A stretch of 64,000 nucleotides of DNA, taken from Lysobacter niastensis. GTDB lineage: Bacteria > Pseudomonadota > Gammaproteobacteria > Xanthomonadales > Xanthomonadaceae. The stretch spans positions 310,001 to 374,000 of the forward strand of contig NZ_JADLZT010000006.1 of assembly GCF_015453285.1 (NCBI RefSeq), given 5' to 3'. Both the position numbers and the translations under genes were made by a program. Of the stretch, positions 48,658 to 59,069 are shown in pieces (within the stretch, counting starts at the first letter, position 1; each line of letters opens with the position of its first letter). A model generated the notes under the pieces. That model saw nothing but the letters and a program-made list of their open reading frames with translations. It ran no database searches and was not told the DNA's origin.

Positions 48658-48703
48658 CCCTTTCACGGTAGCGACCGGGGTTCGAATCCCCGTGGGGACG
48701 CCA
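48658..48703 (+). other. att site: 3' half of tRNA-Glu (UUC)
   Basis: 46 bases equal the tRNA-Glu 3' half: anticodon loop CTTTCAC (anticodon TTC at 48662-48664), T arm CGGGG-TTCGAAT-CCCCG, acceptor strand TGGGGAC, discriminator G and CCA. The 5' half is missing: bases 48655-48659 (AAACC) cannot fully pair with GGTAG. This is the att duplicate at the end of an element that lies to its left. An intact tRNA-Glu was not found in the window. Confidence 0.85.
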
Positions 48704-48714
48704 ATTAGATCAAG

Positions 48715-48750
48715 CACTTAGGGCTGCCGAGAGGCGGCCCTAAGTGTTTT
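48715..48750 (+). terminator. Rho-independent terminator after the tRNA-Glu fragment
   Basis: CACTTAGGGC (48715-48724) pairs perfectly with GCCCTAAGTG (48737-48746), with an inner GCC-GAGA-GGC stem, followed by TTTT. It is probably the original terminator of the tRNA-Glu transcript, which puts the native chromosome to the right. Confidence 0.85.
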
Positions 48751-48769
48751 GCGGTAACGGTGCGGTAAC
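48750..48769 (+). repeat. Two direct TGCGGTAAC repeats, 11 bp apart
   Basis: TGCGGTAAC occurs at 48750-48758 and 48761-48769, just after the terminator. This is the size and spacing of recombinase arm-type sites, but it may be unrelated sequence. Confidence 0.45.
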
Positions 48770-48882
48770 TTCCGGTGCAAGGGGTGTCGGTTTCGGCGGT
48801 CAGCGACTGTGCGAACACCAGAACCGCAGAAGTAGGGCGCAAATGTGCCCAAATGGCAGCTGACCGTCTGCCTGGGTGCCGA

Positions 48883-49398
48883 ATGGACATCGAAAAAATT
48901 CAACGCGCTCTCCAAGCGTTTGCCGATGAGCGGAACTGGGAGCAGTTCCACAACCCCAAGAACTTGGCTATGGCGTTGGCAGGCGAAGCGGGTGAACTCC
49001 TGGAAATTGTTCCAGTGGCCCCTGAGGAGGCCGCGTCGGTGAGTAGCAATGCAGACCTGCAAAGCAAGGTAGCCGAGGAACTAGCCGACATTTCTCTCTA
49101 TTTGCTGAGGCTCGCTGACAAGGCGGGTGTCGACCTCGACGCGGCAATCAGGCTAAAAATGGAAGGCAACGCGAGGAAGTATCCGGCCGATCGCGTCTAT
49201 GGTTCCAGACCCTCACGAGCCCGATTACCCCAGAGCGAGTTGCCCAGAGCGGTTGCTCTATGCCACCCGGAGATCTATTCGCCTGGGGATTCCCGAGGAA
49301 CCCGGACAACCTCGCAAACATCGCCAAGATGGAGCCCGGGGACATTTGCCTCTTCTACGTGCATAAACCTGATGGCACCACTATGGCTGGGCAGCTAG
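48883..49398 (+). CDS. MazG-like nucleotide pyrophosphohydrolase with altered C-terminus
   Basis: 171 residues from the ATG at 48883. Residues 1-105 are a MazG/RS21-C6-type all-alpha NTP pyrophosphohydrolase: NPKNLAMALAGEAGELLEI (ExxE) and EELADISLYLLRLAD (ExxD), with KMEGNARKYP near the normal end. From about residue 108 the frame runs out of phase through a second decayed gene, giving a tail (SRPSRARLPQ...) unlike the family. The enzyme core is probably active in clearing aberrant nucleotides. The tail suggests a deletion that removed its natural end. Confidence 0.75.
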   Translation: MDIEKIQRALQAFADERNWEQFHNPKNLAMALAGEAGELLEIVPVAPEEAASVSSNADLQSKVAEELADISLYLLRLADKAGVDLDAAIRLKMEGNARKYPADRVYGSRPSRARLPQSELPRAVALCHPEIYSPGDSRGTRTTSQTSPRWSPGTFASSTCINLMAPLWLGS

Positions 49399-50151
49399 GG
49401 TTAGACAGAAATTCCCCGAACAAGAACAGGCGAAGATTTCGACGGCGCTCTGGGATGACGGGACCTTTCTGCCTTACCTTCTGCATCGCCCAATCCAAAT
49501 CGCGGCTAGCACGGAGTCGCTTGGCGTCAGTCTCAATGAGACAAAGGAGAGCGACCGACGCTCTGGCCAAGTTCGGGAGCTTCGAAGCATGGGCCGTCGA
49601 CTTCATCCAGATGCACGCGGCATCGCCGCTATCGCCCGGCGAGGCGGTGGAGTACTTCGCGAGGGCTGCCCGCGCTGAGGCAGGCGGCTCGATGCCCGAG
49701 GTCAATTATCTCTTCCAGCCCAAGTCTCCGAAAGCGGGTGCAGCAACGCGCTCCCCATCAAGGAGGCGGCACTCGCGGCAAGCCAAGATTGTGGGCGACA
49801 TAGGTGAGCAGGCAGTCATTGACCATCTCAAGGCAACACTTCCCGTAGGTCGCCACGAATCAATCCGCTGGGTGGCGCAGATGGGCAGACGCCGGGGGGG
49901 GACATCGAGTACGTGTCAGATGCGGTGGAGACAATTTCAGTGGAGGTGAAGGCGACCACTTCACCAACCTTCCCTGCTTTGAGATCACGGATAACGAACT
50001 TCGCGCTGCCACGATGCTGGGCGATAAGTATCACCTCTATCTGGTATCGAATTGCATGAAGCCAGAGCTTCGGAAGCTGCAGATTGTTCGAAATCCTTCG
50101 AAGGAATACGAGGGGCGATTCGCGCCGATGGTTTACCGCGTGATGGGGTGA
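49200..50151 (+). pseudogene. Decayed DUF3883-domain gene
   Basis: Three forward frames each carry part of one protein. Frame 1 (from 49200): DLFAWGFPRNPDNLANIAKM. Frame 2 (about 49390-49540): KFPEQEQAKISTALWDDGTF. Back to frame 1: SFEAWAVDFIQMHAAS and GDIGEQAVIDHLKATLP. After a run of eight G (near 49895): GDIEYVSDAVETISVEVKATT. Finally FEITDNELRAATMLGDKYHL, ending at the TGA at 50149. The last parts match DUF3883, a nuclease-like domain of restriction and defence proteins. At least four frameshifts, so inactive unless sequencing errors are involved. Confidence 0.8.
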
Positions 50152-50283
50152 GTCACCCGGTACGAATTCAGGCTTTGTAGCTGGCGATGGCGCCCGGCCA
50201 ACGTGGAGCGCGGCCCAGCAAGTTGCAACCGTTGTCACATTCGCGCACGATGCCGGAACCAGGGGGCTGGGGGAAAGTGCGGC

Positions 50284-50580
50284 ATGGACACCATCGAAGT
50301 TGTGATGGATCGGGGGCTGTTTTCGCCCGACGTTATCGCGCGCACTGCGCATCGGTACACCGCGGACTACTTTGTCGAGGTGAGCACGGCGGACGACAGG
50401 ATCGTGGTGCGCTTGACGTCCAAAAGTGCTTCGGTCGACACCGCGCACCTTGCGAAGCGCTTTAGCAACGACGCCTTTGATGACCGCTTGCGCGCCTCGG
50501 TCGCCGCGCAGACCGGCGAGTTGCATACGGTGCTAGTGCGGGCCGCGCTAAGCGAGGCTCTCAAGGATCGCAAGGCGTGA
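50284..50580 (+). CDS. hxsD: HxsD, His-Xaa-Ser system protein
   Basis: 98 residues, the usual size of HxsD. The core is FSPDVIARTAHRYTADYFVEVS, VVRLTSKSASVD and a helical end VLVRAALSEAL. The ATG at 50284 has GGGGGAAAG about 9 bases upstream. It is always found with the HxsB and HxsC radical SAM proteins and is thought to aid peptide maturation, perhaps as a scaffold or recognition protein. Its stop overlaps hxsB (GTGA), so the cassette begins here. Confidence 0.88.
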   Translation: MDTIEVVMDRGLFSPDVIARTAHRYTADYFVEVSTADDRIVVRLTSKSASVDTAHLAKRFSNDAFDDRLRASVAAQTGELHTVLVRAALSEALKDRKA

Positions 50581-52070
50581 AGTTCCGCACCAACGACGCT
50601 TTTGCAGGCACGCCCGGCTATCGCCTGCTGCCGCTGCGCTTTCGCCGGCTGCCGTGGGACGCCGAACGAGTGTTCGTCAGTTCCACTGCCGGCGACTGGC
50701 TGATTCTGCGCCATGACGAGCTCGAACAGGTCATCGCCGGCACTCTCGACCCGAACACGCCATTGGGAGCAGACCTGCAGGCGCGGCACCTGATCGCCGC
50801 CGATCCATCGCGTACGACGTTAGCGCCACTGCTCTCGCAGGTCCGCAGCCGTAAGCAGTGCCTGCAGCACGGGCCGTCACTACATATCTTCGTCGTCTCA
50901 CTGCGCTGTCATCATTCTTGCGCCTACTGCCAAGTGTCGCGGGCAGAATCGACCCAGACCGCCTTCGATCTTAGCGATGCGAATGCCGCGCTGGCGGTCG
51001 AGCGCCTGTTCGAATGGCCGTCCCCGACCCTGACAGTCGAGTTCCAGGGCGGCGAACCGCTTCTGCATTTCGAGCAGGTGCGGGCGATCACTGAGCGGAT
51101 TCAGCAGCGCAACCGTCATGAAGGGCGGAACATGCGCTTCGTGCTCGCCTCAACGCTGCACGACCTCAATGACGACCAGCTCGCCTTCTTCCGTGAGCAC
51201 AGCTTCCAGCTGTCGACCTCGTTGGACGGCCCCGAGTGGCTGCACAACGCGAACCGGCCGCGACCCGGGCGAGACAGCTACGCGCGCACTGTGGCCGGCA
51301 TCGAGCGTGCTCGGAGCGCCTTGGGCGAGGACTCGGTGTCGGCCTTGACCACATTGACACAGCGCAGCCTGGGCGCGCCGCGTGAAATCGTCGACGAGTA
51401 CCGCCGGCTCGGCTTCCACTCGATCTTCCTGCGCCCGCTCAGTCCGTACGGTTTCGCGCGCAAGACCGGTCCGCGCATCGGCTACGCGCTAGCCCACTTC
51501 TTCGAGTTCTACCGGGAAGCGCTTGAGCAGATTCTCGCCGTGAATCGCAGCGGCTATGCGCTGGAAGAGGCCTACGCCAGCCTGATCTTGTCGCAGCTGC
51601 TCACGCCGTTCAGCCACGGCTACGTCGATCTGCGCTCGCCGACCGGAGCCGGCTTGGGCGCGGTGGTTTACGACTACGACGGCCAGGCGTACCCCTCAGA
51701 CGAGGCCCGGATGCTGGCGGCAATGGGCGACCGCACGTTTGCGCTAGGTCATGTCGCGCAATCAGTGCGCGAGTGGCTGGCCGCGCCAGCGATGCAGCGC
51801 GTGCTCGATGCCGGTGTCGCCGAAGCCTTGCCAGGCTGTGCAGACTGCGCCTTCGTGCCGCTGTGTGGCGCCGATCCAATCGACCACTACGCCCGCCAGG
51901 GCGACACGTGTGGGCACCGCCCGTCCTCGGACTTCTGCCGCAAACAGCTGGGCTTCTTCGATCTGCTGCTGGAGCGAATGGAACACGCGAATGCCCAGGA
52001 CCGAGCGGTGCTGGAGAGTTGGGCATTGCCGCAACGGCGCGATGCCCCGCCGCAAACGGAGGTCGCCTGA
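50577..52070 (+). CDS. hxsB: HxsB, radical SAM maturase of the His-Xaa-Ser system
   Basis: 497 residues from a GTG overlapping hxsD. The radical SAM cluster motif is CHHSCAYC (Cys111, Cys115, Cys118), followed by EFQGGEPLLHFE (the GGEP motif). A C-terminal SPASM-like Cys region follows: ALPGCADCAFVPLCGADPIDHYARQGDTCG and FCRK, able to bind auxiliary 4Fe-4S clusters. The first 100 residues form the precursor-recognition-like domain. Predicted to install a radical-derived modification in HxsA; the chemistry is unproven. Confidence 0.93.
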   Translation: MKFRTNDAFAGTPGYRLLPLRFRRLPWDAERVFVSSTAGDWLILRHDELEQVIAGTLDPNTPLGADLQARHLIAADPSRTTLAPLLSQVRSRKQCLQHGPSLHIFVVSLRCHHSCAYCQVSRAESTQTAFDLSDANAALAVERLFEWPSPTLTVEFQGGEPLLHFEQVRAITERIQQRNRHEGRNMRFVLASTLHDLNDDQLAFFREHSFQLSTSLDGPEWLHNANRPRPGRDSYARTVAGIERARSALGEDSVSALTTLTQRSLGAPREIVDEYRRLGFHSIFLRPLSPYGFARKTGPRIGYALAHFFEFYREALEQILAVNRSGYALEEAYASLILSQLLTPFSHGYVDLRSPTGAGLGAVVYDYDGQAYPSDEARMLAAMGDRTFALGHVAQSVREWLAAPAMQRVLDAGVAEALPGCADCAFVPLCGADPIDHYARQGDTCGHRPSSDFCRKQLGFFDLLLERMEHANAQDRAVLESWALPQRRDAPPQTEVA

Positions 52071-53260
52071 TGCTAGCGTTGGAGACCAAGGCGACCATAG
52101 ACGGCTGGAACCACCGCGGCCAATACAAGGTGGCCGGGTTGCAGGACTTCGCCGCCGCGCGGCTGCCGCTGGAGCGAATGGTGCTGGACTTGCGTCACGA
52201 CAGCGGTGTGCCGGTTAGCACTGCACTGACCCAATTGCCATGGGCCGGGTTCCTGGTCGATGCAAATGAGTCAGCGCCGACAGGGCGCAGCTGGCTCCAG
52301 CTCCACGGCGAAGCGCGCATCGTTCAGGCGGGCGACGTGATTGAGGTGCAACCCAGCGTGGGTAAGGTCGGCGTACGCTATCGCCGCGGAAGCAACGGCA
52401 ACGTCCTGTTCGCCACGGAGCGCTGCAACAGCTACTGCTTGATGTGTTCGCAGCCGCCGCGGCAGATCGAGGACGATTGGCGCGTAGCCCAGCTGTGCGA
52501 GTTGGCCGAGCTGATCGACCAGGACGAACGCTCACTGGCGATTAGTGGCGGAGAACCGACTCTGCTCGGCGCGGGCCTACCGCAGCTGATTCGGCATTGC
52601 GCGTCCACGCTCCCCCAGACCCACCTGCACGTGCTCTCGAACGGTCGCCGTCTCGGTGAAGGCGACTACGCCGCGGCGTTCCGCGATCTTCATCCGGAGC
52701 TGAGCTGGGGCGTGCCCTTGTACGGCGACGGCTTTGCCCTGCACGACTATGTCGTCCAGAGCGAGGGCGCCTTCGCCCAGACCGTGCGCGGGCTGTACGC
52801 CCTGGAGCGGGCCGAGCAACGCATCGAGATTCGGGTCGTGCTAGTGCGGCCGACCGTGGAACGCCTCTCGGCGCTGGCGCGTTTCCTCTACCGCAACCTG
52901 CCGTTTGTTGAGCACGTTGCGCTGATGGGCGTGGAGCCGATCGGTTTCGCAAAAGCCAATCACGAGGCGCTGTGGCTGGATCCGGCCGACATGGCCCCAG
53001 CGCTGACCGACGCGGTGGCCTTCCTCACTGGTCACGGCATGAGGGTGTCGCTGTACAACCTGCCGCTGTGCGTGCTGCCGCCCGAGCTATGGCCGTACGC
53101 GCAACGCAGTATCTCGGACTGGAAACAAGACTATCTGCCGGCGTGCAGCGCCTGCGCAGTCCGGTCCCGCTGCGGCGGGTTCTTCTCGTGGATCAACGAC
53201 CACTGGCGCAGTCGGGCGATCGCGCCGATCCCATCACTCGCGGAGACTTTCGATGAGTAA
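52070..53260 (+). CDS. hxsC: HxsC, second radical SAM protein of the His-Xaa-Ser system
   Basis: 396 residues. The start at 52070 shares one base with the hxsB stop (TGATG). The radical SAM motif is CNSYCLMC (Cys119, Cys123, Cys126), followed by LAISGGEPTLLG. C-terminal cysteines lie in CSACAVRSRCGGFF, fewer than in HxsB. The protein is distinct from HxsB, so two radical steps probably act on the same precursor. The stop overlaps hxsA by 8 bp, so translation of all four genes is coupled. Confidence 0.93.
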   Translation: MLALETKATIDGWNHRGQYKVAGLQDFAAARLPLERMVLDLRHDSGVPVSTALTQLPWAGFLVDANESAPTGRSWLQLHGEARIVQAGDVIEVQPSVGKVGVRYRRGSNGNVLFATERCNSYCLMCSQPPRQIEDDWRVAQLCELAELIDQDERSLAISGGEPTLLGAGLPQLIRHCASTLPQTHLHVLSNGRRLGEGDYAAAFRDLHPELSWGVPLYGDGFALHDYVVQSEGAFAQTVRGLYALERAEQRIEIRVVLVRPTVERLSALARFLYRNLPFVEHVALMGVEPIGFAKANHEALWLDPADMAPALTDAVAFLTGHGMRVSLYNLPLCVLPPELWPYAQRSISDWKQDYLPACSACAVRSRCGGFFSWINDHWRSRAIAPIPSLAETFDE

Positions 53261-53846
53261 GGTATTGACGATCGCGACGGCCGCGCTGGGCACCCTGCAG
53301 CCGGGTCACCACGAGCCCGGACACGCATGGCAGGCGCACCTGCTCACGCTTGCCCAAGACGATGCCCGCTTCGCGGTGACGTTGACGGCGCCGCTGAACC
53401 TGGACCTCCACAACATGTACGCGGGGCACAGCTCGCACAGGTCGCACAGCAGCCACAGCTCCCATCGTTCGCACTATTCGGGCAGTGGCGGCTACAGCGC
53501 CCCGGTCTACACGCCACCGCCACCTCCGCCGCCGCCACGGCCGACGACCTATGCCCCGGTGTCGAGCGGTTCTTCAGCGACCTCCGGAGATCCGTTCTCT
53601 CTTTCCGCCGCGACAGTAGGTAACAGCCAGCCGCCGCGCGCCAGCCAAGATCAGTTGCAGCTGATGATCATGCGCGTCCAGGCGGCATTGTTTGCACGTG
53701 GTTACGACCCTGGTGGCATTGACGGTACGCTTGGCCCCCAGACTCGAATGGCGCTCGAACTGTTCCAGAGCCGGCATGGCATGCCGGTGACGGGCACAAT
53801 GACAACGGAGACTCTTGATGCTCTTGGCATCGCTCTGTCGCCGTAG
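53253..53846 (+). CDS. hxsA: HxsA, His-Xaa-Ser repeat precursor with peptidoglycan-binding domain
   Basis: 197 residues. Residues 1-55 are a leader-like region. Residues 59-76 are six consecutive HxS triplets (HSS HRS HSS HSS HRS HYS), the presumed modification site. A proline run (about 88-96) and a Ser-rich linker follow. Residues about 133-193 form a PG_binding_1 domain (QLMIMRVQAALFARGYDPGG, IDGTLGPQTRMALELFQSRHG), which would tether the modified peptide to the cell wall. No obvious signal peptide, so the export route is open. The target and function of the product are unknown. Confidence 0.92.
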   Translation: MSKVLTIATAALGTLQPGHHEPGHAWQAHLLTLAQDDARFAVTLTAPLNLDLHNMYAGHSSHRSHSSHSSHRSHYSGSGGYSAPVYTPPPPPPPPRPTTYAPVSSGSSATSGDPFSLSAATVGNSQPPRASQDQLQLMIMRVQAALFARGYDPGGIDGTLGPQTRMALELFQSRHGMPVTGTMTTETLDALGIALSP

Positions 53847-53908
53847 CGGGGCGACAAGGCGGCACCTGCACCCTGGGCGCCTAAAGAGCGTAGTTCTGGT
53901 CATTTCAT

Positions 53909-53942
53909 CTAAGGCGAAGCCGCTTTCGGCGCGCCTTAGTTC
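53909..53942 (+). terminator. Hairpin after hxsA
   Basis: CTAAGGCG (53909-53916) pairs with CGCCTTAG (53932-53939), enclosing a GCCG-CTTT-CGGC stem. It lies 63 bp after hxsA and ends the cassette. The T tract is weak (TTCT). Confidence 0.65.
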
Positions 53943-53960
53943 TAGCATTAGGGGCCTCGC

Positions 53961-54461
53961 GTGAAGCGGAAACCACGGATTCCGTTAAAGCAAATTCGAA
54001 AGTATCAAGATATGTACAGCGCATACGCTGATTCAGAGTTTGACCACCTGCGTGGCGTGGCGCACCTGACTCCAGCACAGCTATATGAGATCTGCCGATG
54101 GAAGTCCAAGCGCCGACCGGAACTTGCACTTGGGAACTCCAAAGAACTGGTTAAGGAGATCACCGCATTTGCCTTCAGCGCGAAGTGCGAGGAATCAAGA
54201 ATTGGCGTGTTGACATTGCTTGATGGTGTCAGCTTTCCAACCGCTTCAGTCATCCTGCATTTCTGCGTGAGCAGGAGCTACCCAATCCTGGATTTTCGGG
54301 CCCTATGGAGTCTTGGGATCGAGAAGCCAGCAGCATATTCAGCGAGATTCTGGATCGAGTACGTGGAGTGTTGCCGAAACATGGCAAGGGACAACGGACT
54401 GTCCGTACGCAGCCTCGACAAAGCGCTCTGGCAGTACTCGCGCGAGCACAAAAATAAATAG
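53961..54461 (+). CDS. HhH-GPD-like hypothetical protein
   Basis: 166 residues, helical and basic. RIGVLTLLDGVSFPTASVILHFCVSRSYPILDFRALWSLG (about residues 84-120) resembles the helix-hairpin-helix and following helix of base-excision glycosylases, in which a GVxxxTAS loop contacts DNA and an Asp follows soon after. The full glycosylase fold is not obvious and the usual catalytic Lys is not seen. DNA binding is inferred. It follows the Hxs hairpin, so probably has its own promoter. Confidence 0.6.
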   Translation: MKRKPRIPLKQIRKYQDMYSAYADSEFDHLRGVAHLTPAQLYEICRWKSKRRPELALGNSKELVKEITAFAFSAKCEESRIGVLTLLDGVSFPTASVILHFCVSRSYPILDFRALWSLGIEKPAAYSARFWIEYVECCRNMARDNGLSVRSLDKALWQYSREHKNK

Positions 54462-54583
54462 TCGGGCGATGTTGGCCCCTGGACGGCATGGTCTGCTGAG
54501 GTGGCCCACCAGGAGCGACTGGGCCCGAGGTCGGCCGTTAGCGCTACCTTAGTAAGCCTGTCGTGCAGCTCGGTTCTGCCAAT

Positions 54584-55444
54584 TCATTCGAGCCGACGTA
54601 GCCCCTCGTCGCGGCTGGGCGAGCCAGGAGCACCACGTTGCTTGAAGTCGCGCTTGGCGCGAAACGCCTCCGAAAATGCGGCAGACAAGATTCCAGTTGG
54701 CATTGCGATTAGGCCAATTCCGGACAGCGCAGTGATGCCGGCGAACAAGCGACCCAATACGGTCACTGGCACAACGTCGCCGTAGCCCACCGTTGTCAAT
54801 GTACTGACCGACCACCAGAGCGCCCTGGGAATGCTGCCAAATGCTTCCGGTTGTACGTCGGCTTCTACAGAGTACAGCGCTGCGGCGGACAACAAAATCA
54901 CGGATCCCGCAAGGGATACAGAGAACAAGAGTTCATGTCGACGCTCAAAAACCGAGCGTAAAACCAATTGCATCGCGGCTGAATAACGGACTAGGCGCGA
55001 AAGTGCCAGCAGCCGAAAAAGTCGCAGTAGACGGACTAAGAAGGACTGAGTCCCCCAGCCCGCGAAGTAGGGAAGGATCGAAGCAAGGTCGAGCAAGGCA
55101 ATGGGAGTCAGTGCATACCGAATACGTCCCAACACACCTGAGTAGCGCGGATCGGCTCCCGCCGCCCAAAGGCGAAGTCCGTATTCCGTCGCAAAAAAAG
55201 TGATGAAAGCAAGCTCGAAAGCTGGCCCGATCGGGCCAAGCGAGCTGCTGATCGCAGGCTCCGTCGCGAGGATTGCAAGAACAATGGACAGAACAATAAC
55301 CACGGCGCTGAGCCTTTGAAACCAGGTCAACTGGTGGGCTTCGGCGCCGTTCAGCGCCTTGTGGACTCGCCGCCGAATGTCATCCTCGTCATTGCCCGCA
55401 TAGGTTATCGCGCCGACCTCGAGCTCACTATTCATGTCACTCAT
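54584..55444 (-). CDS. Voltage-gated-type potassium channel
   Basis: 286 residues. A six-helix ion channel: S1-S4 (LSAVVIVLSIVLAIL, AFELAFITFFATEYGLRLW, LTPIALLDLASILPYF), with an Arg-rich S4 (LVRLLRLFRLLALSRLVRY, about residues 133-151). Pore loop STLTTVGYGDVVP carries the K+ selectivity filter TVGYG. The C-terminal cytoplasmic part is short. Its ATG overlaps the DUF4236 stop, so the two are co-transcribed. Confidence 0.93.
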   Translation of the reverse strand: MSDMNSELEVGAITYAGNDEDDIRRRVHKALNGAEAHQLTWFQRLSAVVIVLSIVLAILATEPAISSSLGPIGPAFELAFITFFATEYGLRLWAAGADPRYSGVLGRIRYALTPIALLDLASILPYFAGWGTQSFLVRLLRLFRLLALSRLVRYSAAMQLVLRSVFERRHELLFSVSLAGSVILLSAAALYSVEADVQPEAFGSIPRALWWSVSTLTTVGYGDVVPVTVLGRLFAGITALSGIGLIAMPTGILSAAFSEAFRAKRDFKQRGAPGSPSRDEGLRRLE

Positions 55445-56688
55445 TGGTTGATCGCGTTGGATTGTGCCAACGAAACATTCATTACTTCCTCGGGCAAGAA
55501 CGGCGCAATGGCCTTAAAGATGCCCGTCTTGCTCATGGCCCTACGAAGATCGAAGCGGGCGATTGCATCAACGACGTCAATGTTCTCGAGAGCAGAGGGG
55601 GAGAACTCAATCTCAGTCCAATCTTGCCTCGTCGCAATCAACGATAAGAGATACTCGTCGGAAATTCGGCCGGTGGCTTTGTCGCTGCGCTGCGAGTATC
55701 CGGAAATGACCACCCGCTCAGCCTTGGGGAGTGCTGCGAAAATCTCGCCAACAATTCGAAACACGATGGCATGAATATGTCGCATGTACAGGCGTTGCAC
55801 TTGCATCGGCGACATATCCTTGACTGACAGCTTCATTCCCCGGGCCGGCACGCCCGCCACCTTGTCAGGCATGTCGCCGATTTCTGGGAGATCGATATCG
55901 ACAAAAACGTCCCGGCCACCCGCCTCAACTTCCGTCGAAATCAGAGTTTCCCGTGGCCAAGCGATGTCTTGCAGCGTAGCCTCAAGATGGAGCTCCATCG
56001 CTTTCGTGTCGATGTAGATCTGCTCCTCGATCAACACGCGGCGTGCATGCTCTTCCTGTCTATGGTCGGTCGCCGCCGACTCCCATTGGGCAACTAAGTC
56101 CTCATAATGCCGATTGGCCTGTTGATTCTCTGCATCGATGCGCTCCCGCGTCCGCTTGAAGAACTTCCCTAAGAAGCTCGGAATTTTGGGCTTGGGTGGG
56201 ACCGGGCGCGGCGATTCAAACTCGCGCCCAATGAAGGTAGGTCGATTATCTGGAGATGGGGTGTCGCGATGGAGTTCGCCCACTGCTTCGATCTGGGCAT
56301 TGATCTCATCGCATTTAGACTGAATCAGCTTGCGTATCGCGTCGCCATGCTGCCGCTTGGCGATGCGGACCAGGCTCTCGGCAAGCGGTTTTCCGGTCTG
56401 GTCCTGGAAAAATACCTCTCCATCGTCGCGGACTCCGACTGAAACCGGAAGCGAGATCATCTGAGTTGGTTGTGCCGCAGATTGGGAGTAGGGCGTACCG
56501 CCGCCAGTCGATAGCTTCTGCCGCATTGACAGTCCTGTTCCGGGAATGCCGACGTTTCCATAGACGCCACGCTTGCCGACACTGACAGAGGCGCCACGAG
56601 GGCCGAAACTCAAACTGGTGCCGCCTCCGCTCAGGTTCATGCGAATTCCGGGCGCAAGCTTGAACGACTTACGAAAACGAATCCCCAT
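55441..56688 (-). CDS. DUF4236-domain protein
   Basis: 415 residues from the ATG at 56688. The N-terminal DUF4236 domain is clear: MGIRFRKSFKLAPGIRMN and GGGTSLSFGPRGASVSVG, about residues 1-60. The rest is a helical, charged region with no known domain (residues about 100-300), then a strand-rich C-terminus (VFVDIDLPEIGDMP, VVISGYSQR). The frame stays open upstream into IS3 remnant sequence, so the annotated start must be taken inside. Function unknown. Confidence 0.85.
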   Translation of the reverse strand: MGIRFRKSFKLAPGIRMNLSGGGTSLSFGPRGASVSVGKRGVYGNVGIPGTGLSMRQKLSTGGGTPYSQSAAQPTQMISLPVSVGVRDDGEVFFQDQTGKPLAESLVRIAKRQHGDAIRKLIQSKCDEINAQIEAVGELHRDTPSPDNRPTFIGREFESPRPVPPKPKIPSFLGKFFKRTRERIDAENQQANRHYEDLVAQWESAATDHRQEEHARRVLIEEQIYIDTKAMELHLEATLQDIAWPRETLISTEVEAGGRDVFVDIDLPEIGDMPDKVAGVPARGMKLSVKDMSPMQVQRLYMRHIHAIVFRIVGEIFAALPKAERVVISGYSQRSDKATGRISDEYLLSLIATRQDWTEIEFSPSALENIDVVDAIARFDLRRAMSKTGIFKAIAPFLPEEVMNVSLAQSNAINQ

Positions 56689-56787
56689 TACGTCCCCCCA
56701 GACGTGCAGACCTTCTTGGGCCCACTTCGGAGAGTACCCCATTGATTGTGTGCTCCCAAGCCCAGTGTGGGATGGCAAATTGGGACT

Positions 56788-57080
56788 CTGCCGCGAGTAC
56801 AGGTCCATCACCGCCGCCAGGAACAGCCAGCCTTGGTGGGATGTAGGTGATGTCGGTGACCCGGACCCGTGTTCCGGCGCCGAAGACGTGAAGTCACGGT
56901 TGAGCACGTTGCCCACCACATCCACCACGCCCACCGGGGCCGCCGTGGTAGCGCGGCTAGCGCCCGTAGCCTACCTGAGCGCGCAGGCCCCGAGCTTTCA
57001 TCAGGCGCCGTACGGGGTGCCGGCTACAAGTCTCGCCGGCCTCGCGCAGGTCCAGGCGGGCTGGGTGGCTCACGCTGCAT
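56788..57080 (-). mobile_element. Remnant of an IS3-family transposase (OrfB)
   Basis: Reading minus strand, VRRLMKARGLRAQVGYGR (helix-turn-helix end of OrfB, about 57030-56970) is followed after a frame change by NVLNRDFTSSAPEHG and, after another shift, GWLFLAAVMDLYSR (about 56830-56790). This order and spacing match IS3-family OrfB before its second catalytic Asp. Both ends are lost, so it cannot transpose. Confidence 0.75.
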
Positions 57081-57130
57081 GCGAGCAAGGCGGGCAGAGG
57101 GCCAAGCGGTCGCATTGCGCGCACAAGCTT

Positions 57131-57655
57131 GGTTCGTTAGAGGGGAAGTGACCATCCGCCGTGGTCATACATCCGATAAACCCGGCTTATCGCCTGTACG
57201 GTGGCGCAGATCAGAGTCTGCAGAAGCCGGCATGGAGGTCACGCTGAGCGTCCGCTTCCGACCTAAAGACTCTGGGCACCTCGCGGACGCCCAAAATTTG
57301 GTTCGGTTCTGACGGAATTTCCTGTTTTGAGCAATCAGAATCGAACTCTCGTCAACGATTTCCCGGGCGCCGTCCAAGCCGAGCGAGTTTTTCAACACAA
57401 TCGACCCAAAGCGGCCGCTCGTGGCGACTCGCCCCGAGCCGTTGGTCCGGTTATCCGCCGCTTATTTGACCGGCTACCGTATCGTCCCTTTCCCGCAAAC
57501 GCTGAGGCGTTACCACTGAGGAGCGTCGGAACAGGCGGCTGGTCCTTGAAGCGCTGCTCAGACGGCGCGGCCTGGGTGGGGGATCATCCATTGCGGCGAC
57601 CTCCGCGCAGGACCATGATCACGGCCGTGGCCGTCAAGGCAGAGAGGTCCTCATC
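57131..57655. other. 525-bp stretch of element debris
   Basis: No intact gene is seen. It holds one copy of a 30-bp repeat (57385) also found before the IS1182 remnant. Other frames show composition typical of shadows. Confidence 0.5.
57385..57414 (+). repeat. 30-bp direct repeat, copy 1
   Basis: GAGTTTTTCAAC-led 30 bases that match 27 of 30 positions with 59070-59099, same orientation. In the second place it adjoins an IS1182 transposase start, so it is probably part of that IS's end. Confidence 0.8.
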
Positions 57656-58083: not shown

Positions 58084-58283
58084 GTCGGGCGAGCGAGGAG
58101 CCTAGGCCTTGCAGGGTTATTCGGACGCCGCCGGAATGTGCATGCAACGCCAATCCACCTGAATATTCAGTTTTGTTTGACACACAGACGCTGTCTATGT
58201 CTCCGCTTCTGGCGCGGCAGCTCGGAGCTTCCGTGGGCCGGGGCGGTGGGACAACGCCCCCGTCGCAGCAGGCCTGTCCGCCC

Positions 58284-58475
58284 ATGTCCGAGATTGCCGC
58301 GACCACCACCTTCCGCACCTGGATGTGCGTCGTCTGCGGGTTCGTCTACGACGAGGCCCAGGGGTTGCCGGAAGAGGGCATCGGCCCGGGCACGCGCTGG
58401 GAGGACGTGCCGGACACCTGGACGTGCCCGGATTGCGGAGCCACCAAAGACGATTTCGAGATGATGCCGCTCTGA
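58284..58475 (+). CDS. Rubredoxin
   Basis: 63 residues. MCVVCGFVYDEAQGLPEEG and WTCPDCGATKDDFEMM give the two CxxCG loops that bind one Fe(SCys)4 centre, with the standard 25- to 30-residue spacing. Residues 1-12 are a short extension. It carries single electrons in the cytoplasm, for example to alkane hydroxylases or oxygen-stress reductases. No partner is nearby. It lies between element remnants. Confidence 0.94.
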   Translation: MSEIAATTTFRTWMCVVCGFVYDEAQGLPEEGIGPGTRWEDVPDTWTCPDCGATKDDFEMMPL

Positions 58476-58584
58476 TGATGCTGCCCTGAAGCGCTGCTTC
58501 AGTTCTGGCCGCGATGGCGGTGCGAAAGCTGAGAGCGGATAGGCTGACCCCGGGGGCAGAGGCCCCACATTGCGGACGAACCAG

Positions 58585-59013
58585 CCCCCTTTGCCACCGA
58601 CCAGCCCTTCGGCTAGGCAGCGCTCCAATACCCTTCTCGAACACGAACCGCAGGGTGTCGTTGTCGCGGAACCGGCCATGCCGGTTCTTCGAGAACGTCG
58701 AGTGGTCCGGCACCGCGTCTTCCAGCCCCAGGCGGCAGAACCAGCGGCAAGCGAGGTTCAGATGCACCTCTTCACAAAGCCGATGCTCGGAGCGGATGCC
58801 GAAGCAGTAGCCGACGATCAGCATGCGAATCAGCAATGCCGGATCGACGGAAGGGCGGCCGGTGTGGCTGTAGTGCGGCGCGAGATGCCGGTGCAGCTCG
58901 CTCAGATCCAGGAACTGGTCGATGCCGCGGAGCAGATGGTTCGCTGGAACGTGCTCTTCCAGGTTGAAGGCGTAGAACAGCGGCGCTTGGCCGACTTCCT
59001 GACGTCCCATCAT
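58585..59013 (-). pseudogene. Truncated IS1182-family transposase
   Basis: From the ATG at 59013 the first 130 or so residues are a clear IS1182-type N-terminus: GRQEV, LEEHVPANHLLRGIDQFLDLS, HYSHTGRPSVDPALLIRMLIVGYCFGIRSE and PDHSTFSKNRHGRFRD. Near 58640 one extra G shifts the frame; the other frame continues VLERCLAEGLVGGKG, then ends. The catalytic C-terminal two thirds are missing, so it is inactive. Confidence 0.85.
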
Positions 59014-59069
59014 CACGTCGAGTTCCTTCCATGACGTCAGTGAATCAGCATCAGATGACCGATTCAACC

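Follow-up and report, generated by a model that had tools for sequence, protein, structure and literature searches.

The four-gene cassette hxsDBCA was analysed in a 64,000-nucleotide stretch of the Lysobacter niastensis genome (contig NZ_JADLZT010000006.1, positions 310,001 to 374,000; the whole stretch is called the window). The preferred reading, drawn by analogy and given a probability of about 0.4, is that of a mobile peptide-maturation cassette in which each His-Xaa-Ser (HxS) triplet of the protein HxsA would be closed into a ring from the His to the Cβ of the Ser. The gene order, the intact motifs, the co-occurrence of the genes, the grammar of the triplet array, purifying selection and mobility were all read from the sequences. 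The family was named from genomes, yet its genes are found on plasmids, mostly of Klebsiella, and on Escherichia coli chromosomes, and a precise chemical prediction together with the mobile, defence-island context makes the open question testable. If the ring prediction is true, a three-residue ring chemistry that, to our knowledge, is otherwise familiar from small peptides only would here occur in repeated form on a protein, which is probably displayed at the surface.

Cassette, substrate and enzymes

The four genes lie on the plus strand with overlaps of 4 bp (hxsD/hxsB), 1 bp (hxsB/hxsC) and 8 bp (hxsC/hxsA), and these coordinates and overlaps, claimed by an earlier note on this DNA (the original prediction), were reproduced from the DNA. 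The two radical S-adenosylmethionine (SAM) motifs that it named were intact, with CHHSCAYC at residues 111–118 of HxsB and CNSYCLMC at residues 119–126 of HxsC, and its six adjacent HxS triplets and peptidoglycan-binding domain were found at HxsA residues 59–76 and 141–191. It had also called the cassette complete, which was confirmed by the presence of all four genes with HxsA, HxsB and HxsC above their NCBIfam cut-offs: HxsB scored 563.2 bits (TIGR03978, cut-off 370; E = 4.2e-169), HxsC 375.9 bits (TIGR03977, cut-off 267.9) and HxsA 165.6 bits (TIGR03979, cut-off 121.65; E = 1.2e-48). With E-values between 1.2e-48 (HxsA) and 4.2e-169 (HxsB), the sequence matches cannot be due to chance. HxsD scored 40.6 bits, which is under the TIGR03976 cut-off of 50; hence, its identity follows from the gene position together with a sub-threshold match. 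Membership of the Hxs family still stands because some cassettes appear to lack HxsD. In Pfam, the radical SAM domain was recognised in HxsB and, below threshold, in HxsC, and PG_binding_1 was recognised in HxsA. By these matches, the locus is a further member of the named, uncharacterised Hxs family and not an unnamed system; the suggestion of an undescribed system was not borne out, as curated NCBIfam models exist for all four genes.

The founding paper of the family is reportedly that of Haft and Basu from 2011. The earlier statement that no product chemistry or role is established agrees with the open full-text literature, in which nothing characterising His-Xaa-Ser, and no Hxs product or role, was found; most subscription journals lay outside this search. 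In the passages at hand, HxsB is given as an annotated cluster and the motif is credited to Haft and Basu (PMC9062424), the four hxs genes stand in the gene list of a Pseudomonas aeruginosa genome (PMC8446631), and the name His-Xaa-Ser is contained in PMC6537148.

The array of the window HxsA reads HSS-HRS-HSS-HSS-HRS-HYS and uses mixed Ser codons. The array statistics were obtained from 90 distinct HxsA proteins, after eight repeats were dropped from 98. Six adjacent in-phase triplets were present in 61 of the proteins, five and seven in 13 each, eight in two and four in one. The middle residue (n = 542) was mostly Ser or Arg (S 261, R 197, Y 53, A 22, V 3, G 2, and H, C, M and T 1 each), whereas in the last triplet it was Tyr in 53/90 proteins; the residue right after the array was Gly in 72 and Ser in 18. 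The middle residues followed the pattern RSRSSY in 29/90 proteins and RSRSRS in 14/90. All six Ser codons were used in the arrays, which points to selection acting on the protein.

PG_binding_1 was matched by 46 of the 54 representative HxsA proteins, and three short proteins of 84–99 residues (L109, L111 and L115; L numbers denote hxs loci, or tree and flank entries, and G numbers denote genomes of the comparison set) stop no more than about 16 residues after the array. Hence, the array would be what all HxsA proteins share, with the wall-binding domain often added to it. The claim that the product is held on the cell wall is plausible here but does not extend to the whole family; wall anchoring appears to be common, not universal, among HxsA proteins. 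A crude export-signal rule was passed by 65/98 HxsA proteins and is too weak to settle export. The cyanobacterial (Calothrix) HxsA of L100 (11098–11823) has a C-terminal part that matches the middle region of the cell-shape protein TftA. TftA was rejected as a functional relative, as this was the one match among the 54 proteins and reached 39.9 of 500 bits in the middle region only; the hydrolase domains, following the domain layout in the passages seen of PMC10710843, were not covered.

Cysteine conservation was evaluated in 96 HxsB proteins (of 99; three outside 400–620 residues were dropped) and 100 HxsC proteins. Beyond the CxxxCxxC motif, the Cys residues kept in more than half of the proteins were C421, C424, C430 and C454 in HxsB (98–100%) and C334, C359, C362 and C368 (100%) together with C177 (72%) in HxsC. 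Since four auxiliary Cys are strictly conserved in each enzyme, HxsB and HxsC are each read as carrying one putative auxiliary cluster site. The HxsB spacing (C-x2-C-x5-C-x23-C) resembles what we take to be the Aux II site of the anaerobic sulfatase-maturating enzyme (anSME), and the Aux I ligands are presumably missing. The SPASM pattern comprises seven Cys for two auxiliary clusters; it was not found in HxsB (n = 96) or HxsC (n = 100), as each conserved four auxiliary Cys, in HxsC besides C177.

Searched by sequence against the PDB at E 0.01, HxsB gave four distinct matches, namely 5wgg (5.8e-10), ChlB (5.6e-8) and two anSME chains (8–9e-7). Among the family matches listed (25 of 38 families), the lower ranks included the sulfatase maturase family and the cyclophane family AmcB, and all non-self scores were far under the respective cut-offs. 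The HxsB N-terminus aligned over 60 columns with the 67-column profile of a PqqD-like RiPP (ribosomally synthesised and post-translationally modified peptide) recognition element at E 0.039 and a probability of 1.3%. The HxsC model (pLDDT 94.0) ranked SkfB first and SuiB next by fold, with TM-scores of 0.38–0.47.

The HxsD model (pLDDT 92.4) is built as beta-alpha-beta-beta-long helix, and none of its PDB matches reached E 0.001; its weak fold matches (E 0.04–0.2) were mostly ferredoxin-like, including pterin carbinolamine dehydratase, an S6 permutant and Pcc1. A PqqD-like recognition element was considered for HxsD and rejected: alignment with hhalign to 30 PqqD sequences gave a probability of 0.2% (run without a positive control), and the beta-alpha-beta-beta-helix order speaks against a winged-helix fold. 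HxsD was not detected in 15 of 100 loci, some of which were cut by contig ends. By eye, among 11 loci inspected, five alphaproteobacterial loci (L058, L065, L075, L076 and L081) seem to be without HxsD, and three others (L113, L122 and L123) have a small open reading frame in its place that may be a diverged HxsD.

The co-occurrence of the genes was explored in 398 genomes of the phylum, where HxsC (E 1e-40) and HxsB (E 1e-60) occurred in the same 15 genomes and HxsB exceeded its cut-off in 14 of them. HxsA was over its cut-off in 13 genomes, comprising 12 of these 15 and G258. At E 1e-6 the HxsA model matched 131/398 genomes, and the sub-cut-off matches listed fell mainly on its peptidoglycan-binding half. 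These counts support a shared fate for HxsA, HxsB and HxsC as judged from genome content. The three remaining genomes (G262, G298 and G409) had no HxsA over the cut-off, and their substrate may be another HxsA type. The cassette was sporadic, in 2/12 genomes of the genus and 10/149 of the family. In the wider set, the loci were retrieved through HxsC, so that its presence in 100/100 holds by construction; the best 80 of 576 relatives were kept, and the sample leans to near relatives. Overlaps were counted in 71/85 (hxsD–hxsB), 75/99 (hxsB–hxsC) and 84/98 (hxsC–hxsA) loci, numbers that are biased upward because gene starts were set near the previous stop. The HxsA of G258 (contig 32, 29076–29639) contains three in-frame stops, and neither HxsB nor HxsC was matched in this genome at the thresholds applied; it is probably a remnant of a decaying cassette. 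L038 is a 5.4-kb contig labelled Paenibacillus dendritiformis whose cassette groups with Lysobacteraceae in the tree, which is probably contamination of that assembly.

Predicted chemistry and its alternatives

For the reaction, the division of labour, the part of HxsD, export, location and role, we infer the following course. HxsA would be made as a leader, an HxS-triplet array and a wall-binding domain. HxsB would abstract a hydrogen from the Cβ of each array Ser, and the imidazole of the His that stands two residues earlier would trap the resulting radical. The result would be a strained three-residue His-x-Ser ring, with the loss of two hydrogens per triplet and up to 12 here. HxsC may share the work on alternate triplets or add a second modification; an Arg/Ser alternation of the middle residue would fit enzymes dividing the triplets, which is a guess. 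HxsD may be a non-catalytic scaffold of the complex, missing from some cassettes. The product would be a stiff rod of adjacent small rings, exported and docked on the peptidoglycan in most hosts.

Radical SAM enzymes that link residue i to the Cβ of residue i+2 are described in the passages seen of PMC11002830, with C4(Phe)–Cβ(Ser) for MscB, C2(His)–Cβ(Ala) for HaaB and C2(His)–Cβ(Arg) for YhhB. Because of these precedents, HxS combines a known first residue with a known third residue, and the i/i+2 links together with the presumed Ser Cβ abstraction favour one ring per triplet. The motif rule for triceptide substrates (aromatic-x-x3, with reactive residue types) was matched by HxS in 90/90 arrays, by construction of the search. 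The ring reading is further favoured by HxsB matches to cyclophane, thioether and formylglycine maturases, all below their cut-offs, and by the RiPP maturases SkfB and SuiB as the best-ranked folds for HxsC. HxsB exceeded none of the tested cyclophane cut-offs (AmcB 56.3/425, YhhB 50.5/445, GrrM/OscB 50/310 and FxsB 38.4/370 bits); hence, the comparison with triceptides concerns only how the enzyme may work.

Several observations weigh against the ring reading. No Hxs product has yet been seen, and the invariance of His and Ser (90/90) holds partly by construction, as the arrays were found as HxS runs. The genome-wide search covered the HxsA family TIGR03979 only, and other HxS arrays may lack the enzymes. 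With just four auxiliary Cys, HxsB would differ from the full SPASM pattern. Its top non-self families were quinohemoprotein maturation (80.9 bits), nif11-type (80.6 bits) and PapB (77.6 bits), with the best cyclophane family, AmcB, behind them. The first PDB match of HxsC by sequence was viperin-like (E 2.2e-9), followed by BlsE and SkfB, and these non-peptide enzymes, BlsE and viperin-like, stood close behind SkfB and SuiB in the fold ranking. Moreover, the export signal of the window HxsA passes the crude rule alone and the sister copy fails it, and no dedicated transporter or protease recurred beside the cassette in the 45 largest neighbour clusters.

The abstraction at the Ser Cβ is a step common to the ring and to formylglycine formation, in which the array Ser residues would be oxidised as by anSME and the aldehydes would react with amines of the wall or surface. 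HxsB matched the anaerobic sulfatase maturase family with 66.5 bits (E 2.1e-18) and anSME chains of the PDB at E 8e-7 (ranks 3 and 4 of 4), and the Ser Cβ would be the site of attack. However, this reaction gives no reason for the His that precedes each Ser by two residues, and anSME carries two auxiliary clusters, against four conserved auxiliary Cys in HxsB; formylglycine is thus considered unlikely. A broader alternative is another radical change without a His–Cβ(Ser) ring, such as epimerisation, Cα or ether links, or hydroxylation or methylation of His, with HxsB and HxsC possibly differing in their reactions. Two maturases occur together, the HxsC fold resembles the sactipeptide maturase SkfB first (the epimerase EpeE is at rank 47), and the nearest families of HxsB include thioether formers; nevertheless, none of these changes requires His and Ser at a fixed spacing of two, and a change of this kind is judged well short of an even bet, at roughly the odds of one card suit. 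The original prediction took the absence of a mass change in the HxS peptide as a refutation, which is incomplete: epimerisation gives no mass change, and the ring and formylglycine each give −2 Da. Both cost two hydrogens, so mass alone cannot decide between them.

The array may also be a His-rich metal-binding segment, with the radical enzymes acting elsewhere or lightly. Six close His residues can bind metals, and a His–dehydrobutyrine cross-link gives noursin its copper binding in the passages seen of PMC11002830. However, an HxsA over the cut-off without HxsB and HxsC was met once in 398 genomes, and with in-frame stops, and metal binding would not require the spacing and the Ser to be kept as strictly as they are in the array. 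This explanation is regarded as very improbable.

Island setting, mobility and defence genes

The coordinates of the cassette and of the surrounding features are given in Table 1.

Table 1. Features of the hxs cassette and its island (window positions).
Feature	Position	Strand	Description
hxsD	50284..50580	+	ATG, 98 aa; small accessory protein; TIGR03976 sub-threshold; model pLDDT 92.4
hxsB	50577..52070	+	GTG, 497 aa; radical SAM maturase with one putative auxiliary four-Cys site; TIGR03978
HxsB radical SAM motif C111-x3-C115-x2-C118	50907..50930	+	conserved in 96/96 homologues
HxsB proposed auxiliary cluster ligands C421, C424, C430, C454	51837..51938	+	98–100% in 96 homologues
hxsC	52070..53260	+	ATG, 396 aa; second radical SAM maturase; TIGR03977; model pLDDT 94.0
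HxsC radical SAM motif C119-x3-C123-x2-C126	52424..52447	+	conserved in 100/100
HxsC proposed auxiliary cluster ligands C334, C359, C362, C368	53069..53173	+	conserved in 100/100
hxsA	53253..53846	+	ATG, 197 aa; proposed substrate protein; TIGR03979
Six tandem HxS triplets, HxsA residues 59–76	53427..53480	+	read from sequence
HxsA peptidoglycan-binding domain, residues 141–191	53673..53825	+	PF01471, 51.7 bits
Phage-type integrase adjoining the duplicated segment	47274..48506	-	PF00589, 74.3 bits
Island segment with a diverged second copy in the genome	48657..57201	.	blastn, two blocks; mosaic identity

The genome holds a second cassette at a distance of about 101 kb, inside a diverged copy of the island segment (L007, 7865–15616). 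The duplicated segment holds a MazG-like gene, hxsDBCA, a 166-residue gene, an ion channel and DUF4236, and the copies aligned by blastn in a 7.3-kb block at 85% overall identity and a 466-bp block at 93%. In 200-bp steps, the identity was 86–97% in the backbone (48700–49099, 49900–50299 and 53700–57099) and 72–85% at 50300–53699, from hxsD to the latter part of hxsA, with a graded left transition (92, 87, 85 and 74%). Synonymous divergence (dS) between the copies reached 1.20 in hxsB, 1.09 in hxsC, 0.78 in hxsA and 0.46 in hxsD, compared with 0.20 and 0.13 in the two flanking genes that were measured. The ratios of nonsynonymous to synonymous divergence (dN/dS) were 0.063 for hxsB, 0.098 for hxsC, 0.149 for hxsA and 0.302 for hxsD, and both cassettes are under purifying selection. 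The simplest reading of these sequences is that one cassette was swapped for a diverged allele inside a shared backbone and that both were kept functional. In a tree of 95 of the 100 loci, to which the congener G010 did not belong, the two cassettes were sisters with support 1.0; hence, the donor would be a close relative. In the 20 kb around the G010 cassette, the part shared with the window was 50265–53830 only, at 70% nucleotide identity, that is, the four hxs genes and almost nothing more.

The neighbours of the window cassette are the integrase, the MazG-like gene, the ion channel, the DUF4236 gene and a transposase. About 0.78 kb at 49118–49892 is present in the window copy only and holds much of an open frame (49260–49949) that matched no Pfam family. 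The ion-channel gene is open in the window (54584–55444), unlike that of the second cassette, which is broken into pieces in different frames (L007, 13014–13940). The 166-residue gene 3' of hxsA was found in the two copies of this genome only. A transposase-type gene (58195–59016; PF05598) follows the duplicated segment on its 3' side, and an imperfect direct repeat of 35 nt stands at 57384 and 59069. When an empty site was sought in the 11 other genomes of the genus, the right flank had no match and the left flank had weak partial matches, which tell only that the region is variable. Taken from its sequence context, the cassette looks like an island passenger, with two differing copies in one genome.

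Mobility was also evident from public records. HxsC was found by tblastn (E 1e-20) in 429 of 72,556 plasmid records, of which 329 were from Klebsiella and 344 predicted to be conjugative; 27 records held 80% of the query in one place, and 40 of the matches were listed. The Klebsiella cassette DNA had matches in 354 plasmid records, 310 of which covered 80% of its length, and in 153 complete E. coli genomes out of 5,426, with coverage of at least 80% in 139; the E. coli matches were all chromosomal. In the one Klebsiella plasmid examined, the cassette has a mer operon on one side and IS66-type transposase genes on the other. Phage records held HxsC in 2 of 50,697 cases at E 1e-15, one being a Leptospira phage, and a pattern scan of IMG/VR contigs gave 18 loci.

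The original prediction had asked which genes are always next to such cassettes. The flanks of the 100 loci were clustered (simple gene caller, blastp E 1e-8, 60% length; 45 largest clusters inspected), and no conserved fifth gene across lineages emerged: the largest cluster covered 17 loci, 16 of them Pseudomonas. The neighbour cluster widest across genera looks like LysR regulators. In Pseudomonas loci (L078, L088, L098 and L104), LysR-type and oxidoreductase-type genes recur 5' of hxs and the 3' side varies, a pattern that by our reading resembles a preferred insertion site. On Rhizobium etli p42a (L133), hxsBCA lies near integrase, DUF4236, caspase-family and TIR genes, a make-up like that of the window island; as this was the one further case of DUF4236 beside hxs, it was taken as coincidence and DUF4236 was rejected as a linked gene.

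The defence-gene context was evaluated in paired 20-kb regions of 17 genomes, namely the hxs flanks and control positions picked by hand without regard to islands; five of the 22 positive genomes (G000, G054, G180, G208 and G262) were left out. A simple gene caller supplied up to eight proteins of up to 700 residues per region. At E 1e-15, the 136 flank proteins matched 108 PADLOC models, whereas the 132 control proteins matched nine (mad2, mad3, mad8, RecD types, PDC-S53 and PDC-S68). Several models can match one protein; therefore, ten of the 136 flank proteins, chosen by eye, were checked singly. For nine of them, from five loci, the PADLOC match reached E 1e-50 or better: ThsA2, ThsB2 and ThsC2 (Thoeris) just 3' of hxs in a congener (L152); ThsA1, ThsB1 and an AriA-like ATPase beside hxs in L164; PDC-S65 in L162; a type IV restriction enzyme in L160; and an RT_II-A reverse transcriptase in L167. 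The tenth (L161) matched no PADLOC model. The best of all 132 control proteins reached E 5.4e-48. Strong matches thus occurred at no fewer than five (at least 5/17) hxs loci and 0/17 controls, with a one-sided Fisher p of 0.022 by locus that is only indicative because 1e-50 was adopted as the level with both lists already in view. Pfam separated the same sets less clearly: among the first 25 families, LysR led both lists, and TIR, SIR2 and Thoeris domains were in the hxs list only. A second flank set (139 proteins from 36 other loci, with no matched control) matched 61 PADLOC models, including a phospholipase effector, by our reading CBASS, as well as LmuA, ThsB and type II and IIG restriction-modification genes. 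These matches support a placement of hxs in defence-rich, mobile regions as far as gene content goes; with control positions picked regardless of islands, the comparison shows island placement and not function.

Whatever its chemistry, the cassette may serve anti-phage defence or the exclusion of other elements at the wall. The strong matches beside hxs and none in the same-genome controls, the same kind of genes in the second set and the Thoeris genes of the congener argue for such a role. However, islands collect unrelated cargo and no single defence system recurs throughout; the 1e-50 level was set afterwards, and at 1e-15 the controls also matched models. Moreover, class II lanthipeptide clusters are likewise situated close to defence genes according to the abstract of PMC12715929, so that shared island residence suffices to explain the association and the link need not be functional. 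The passages seen of PMC10250203 on Pseudomonas defence hotspots contained no link to hxs. A defence role is accordingly held to be distinctly unlikely, and it would be a long shot that a tandem His–Ser cyclophane ladder on the wall acts as a mobile, allele-swapping barrier or weapon travelling with defence islands and conjugative plasmids.

Comparison with known systems

The locus shares with the Hxs system (TIGR03976–TIGR03979) the four genes in their usual order and HxsA, HxsB and HxsC over the cut-offs; it differs in an HxsD under the cut-off and in one genome holding two diverged cassettes in the same island backbone. The formylglycine-forming anSME, which acts on the Cβ of Ser or Cys, is a sequence relative of HxsB, whereas HxsB conserves four auxiliary Cys where anSME has ligands for two clusters, and the substrate motifs are unlike. 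SkfB and SuiB are the top-ranked solved folds for HxsC; however, the TM-scores are low at just 0.38–0.47, the sequence match is viperin-like first, and HxsC shows an N-terminal part of its own as well as four auxiliary Cys. In the triceptides, the three-residue cyclophane-forming enzymes or 3-CyFE (MscB, HaaB, YhhB, OscB and XncB) join an aromatic residue i to the Cβ of residue i+2, and both His and Ser have precedents at their respective positions in the passages seen of PMC11002830. By comparison, Hxs has two enzymes and a longer protein, which bears four to eight adjacent triplets and in most cases a domain for wall binding; the HxsB scores fall far short of the cut-offs of those families, and the ring in Hxs is a predicted one.

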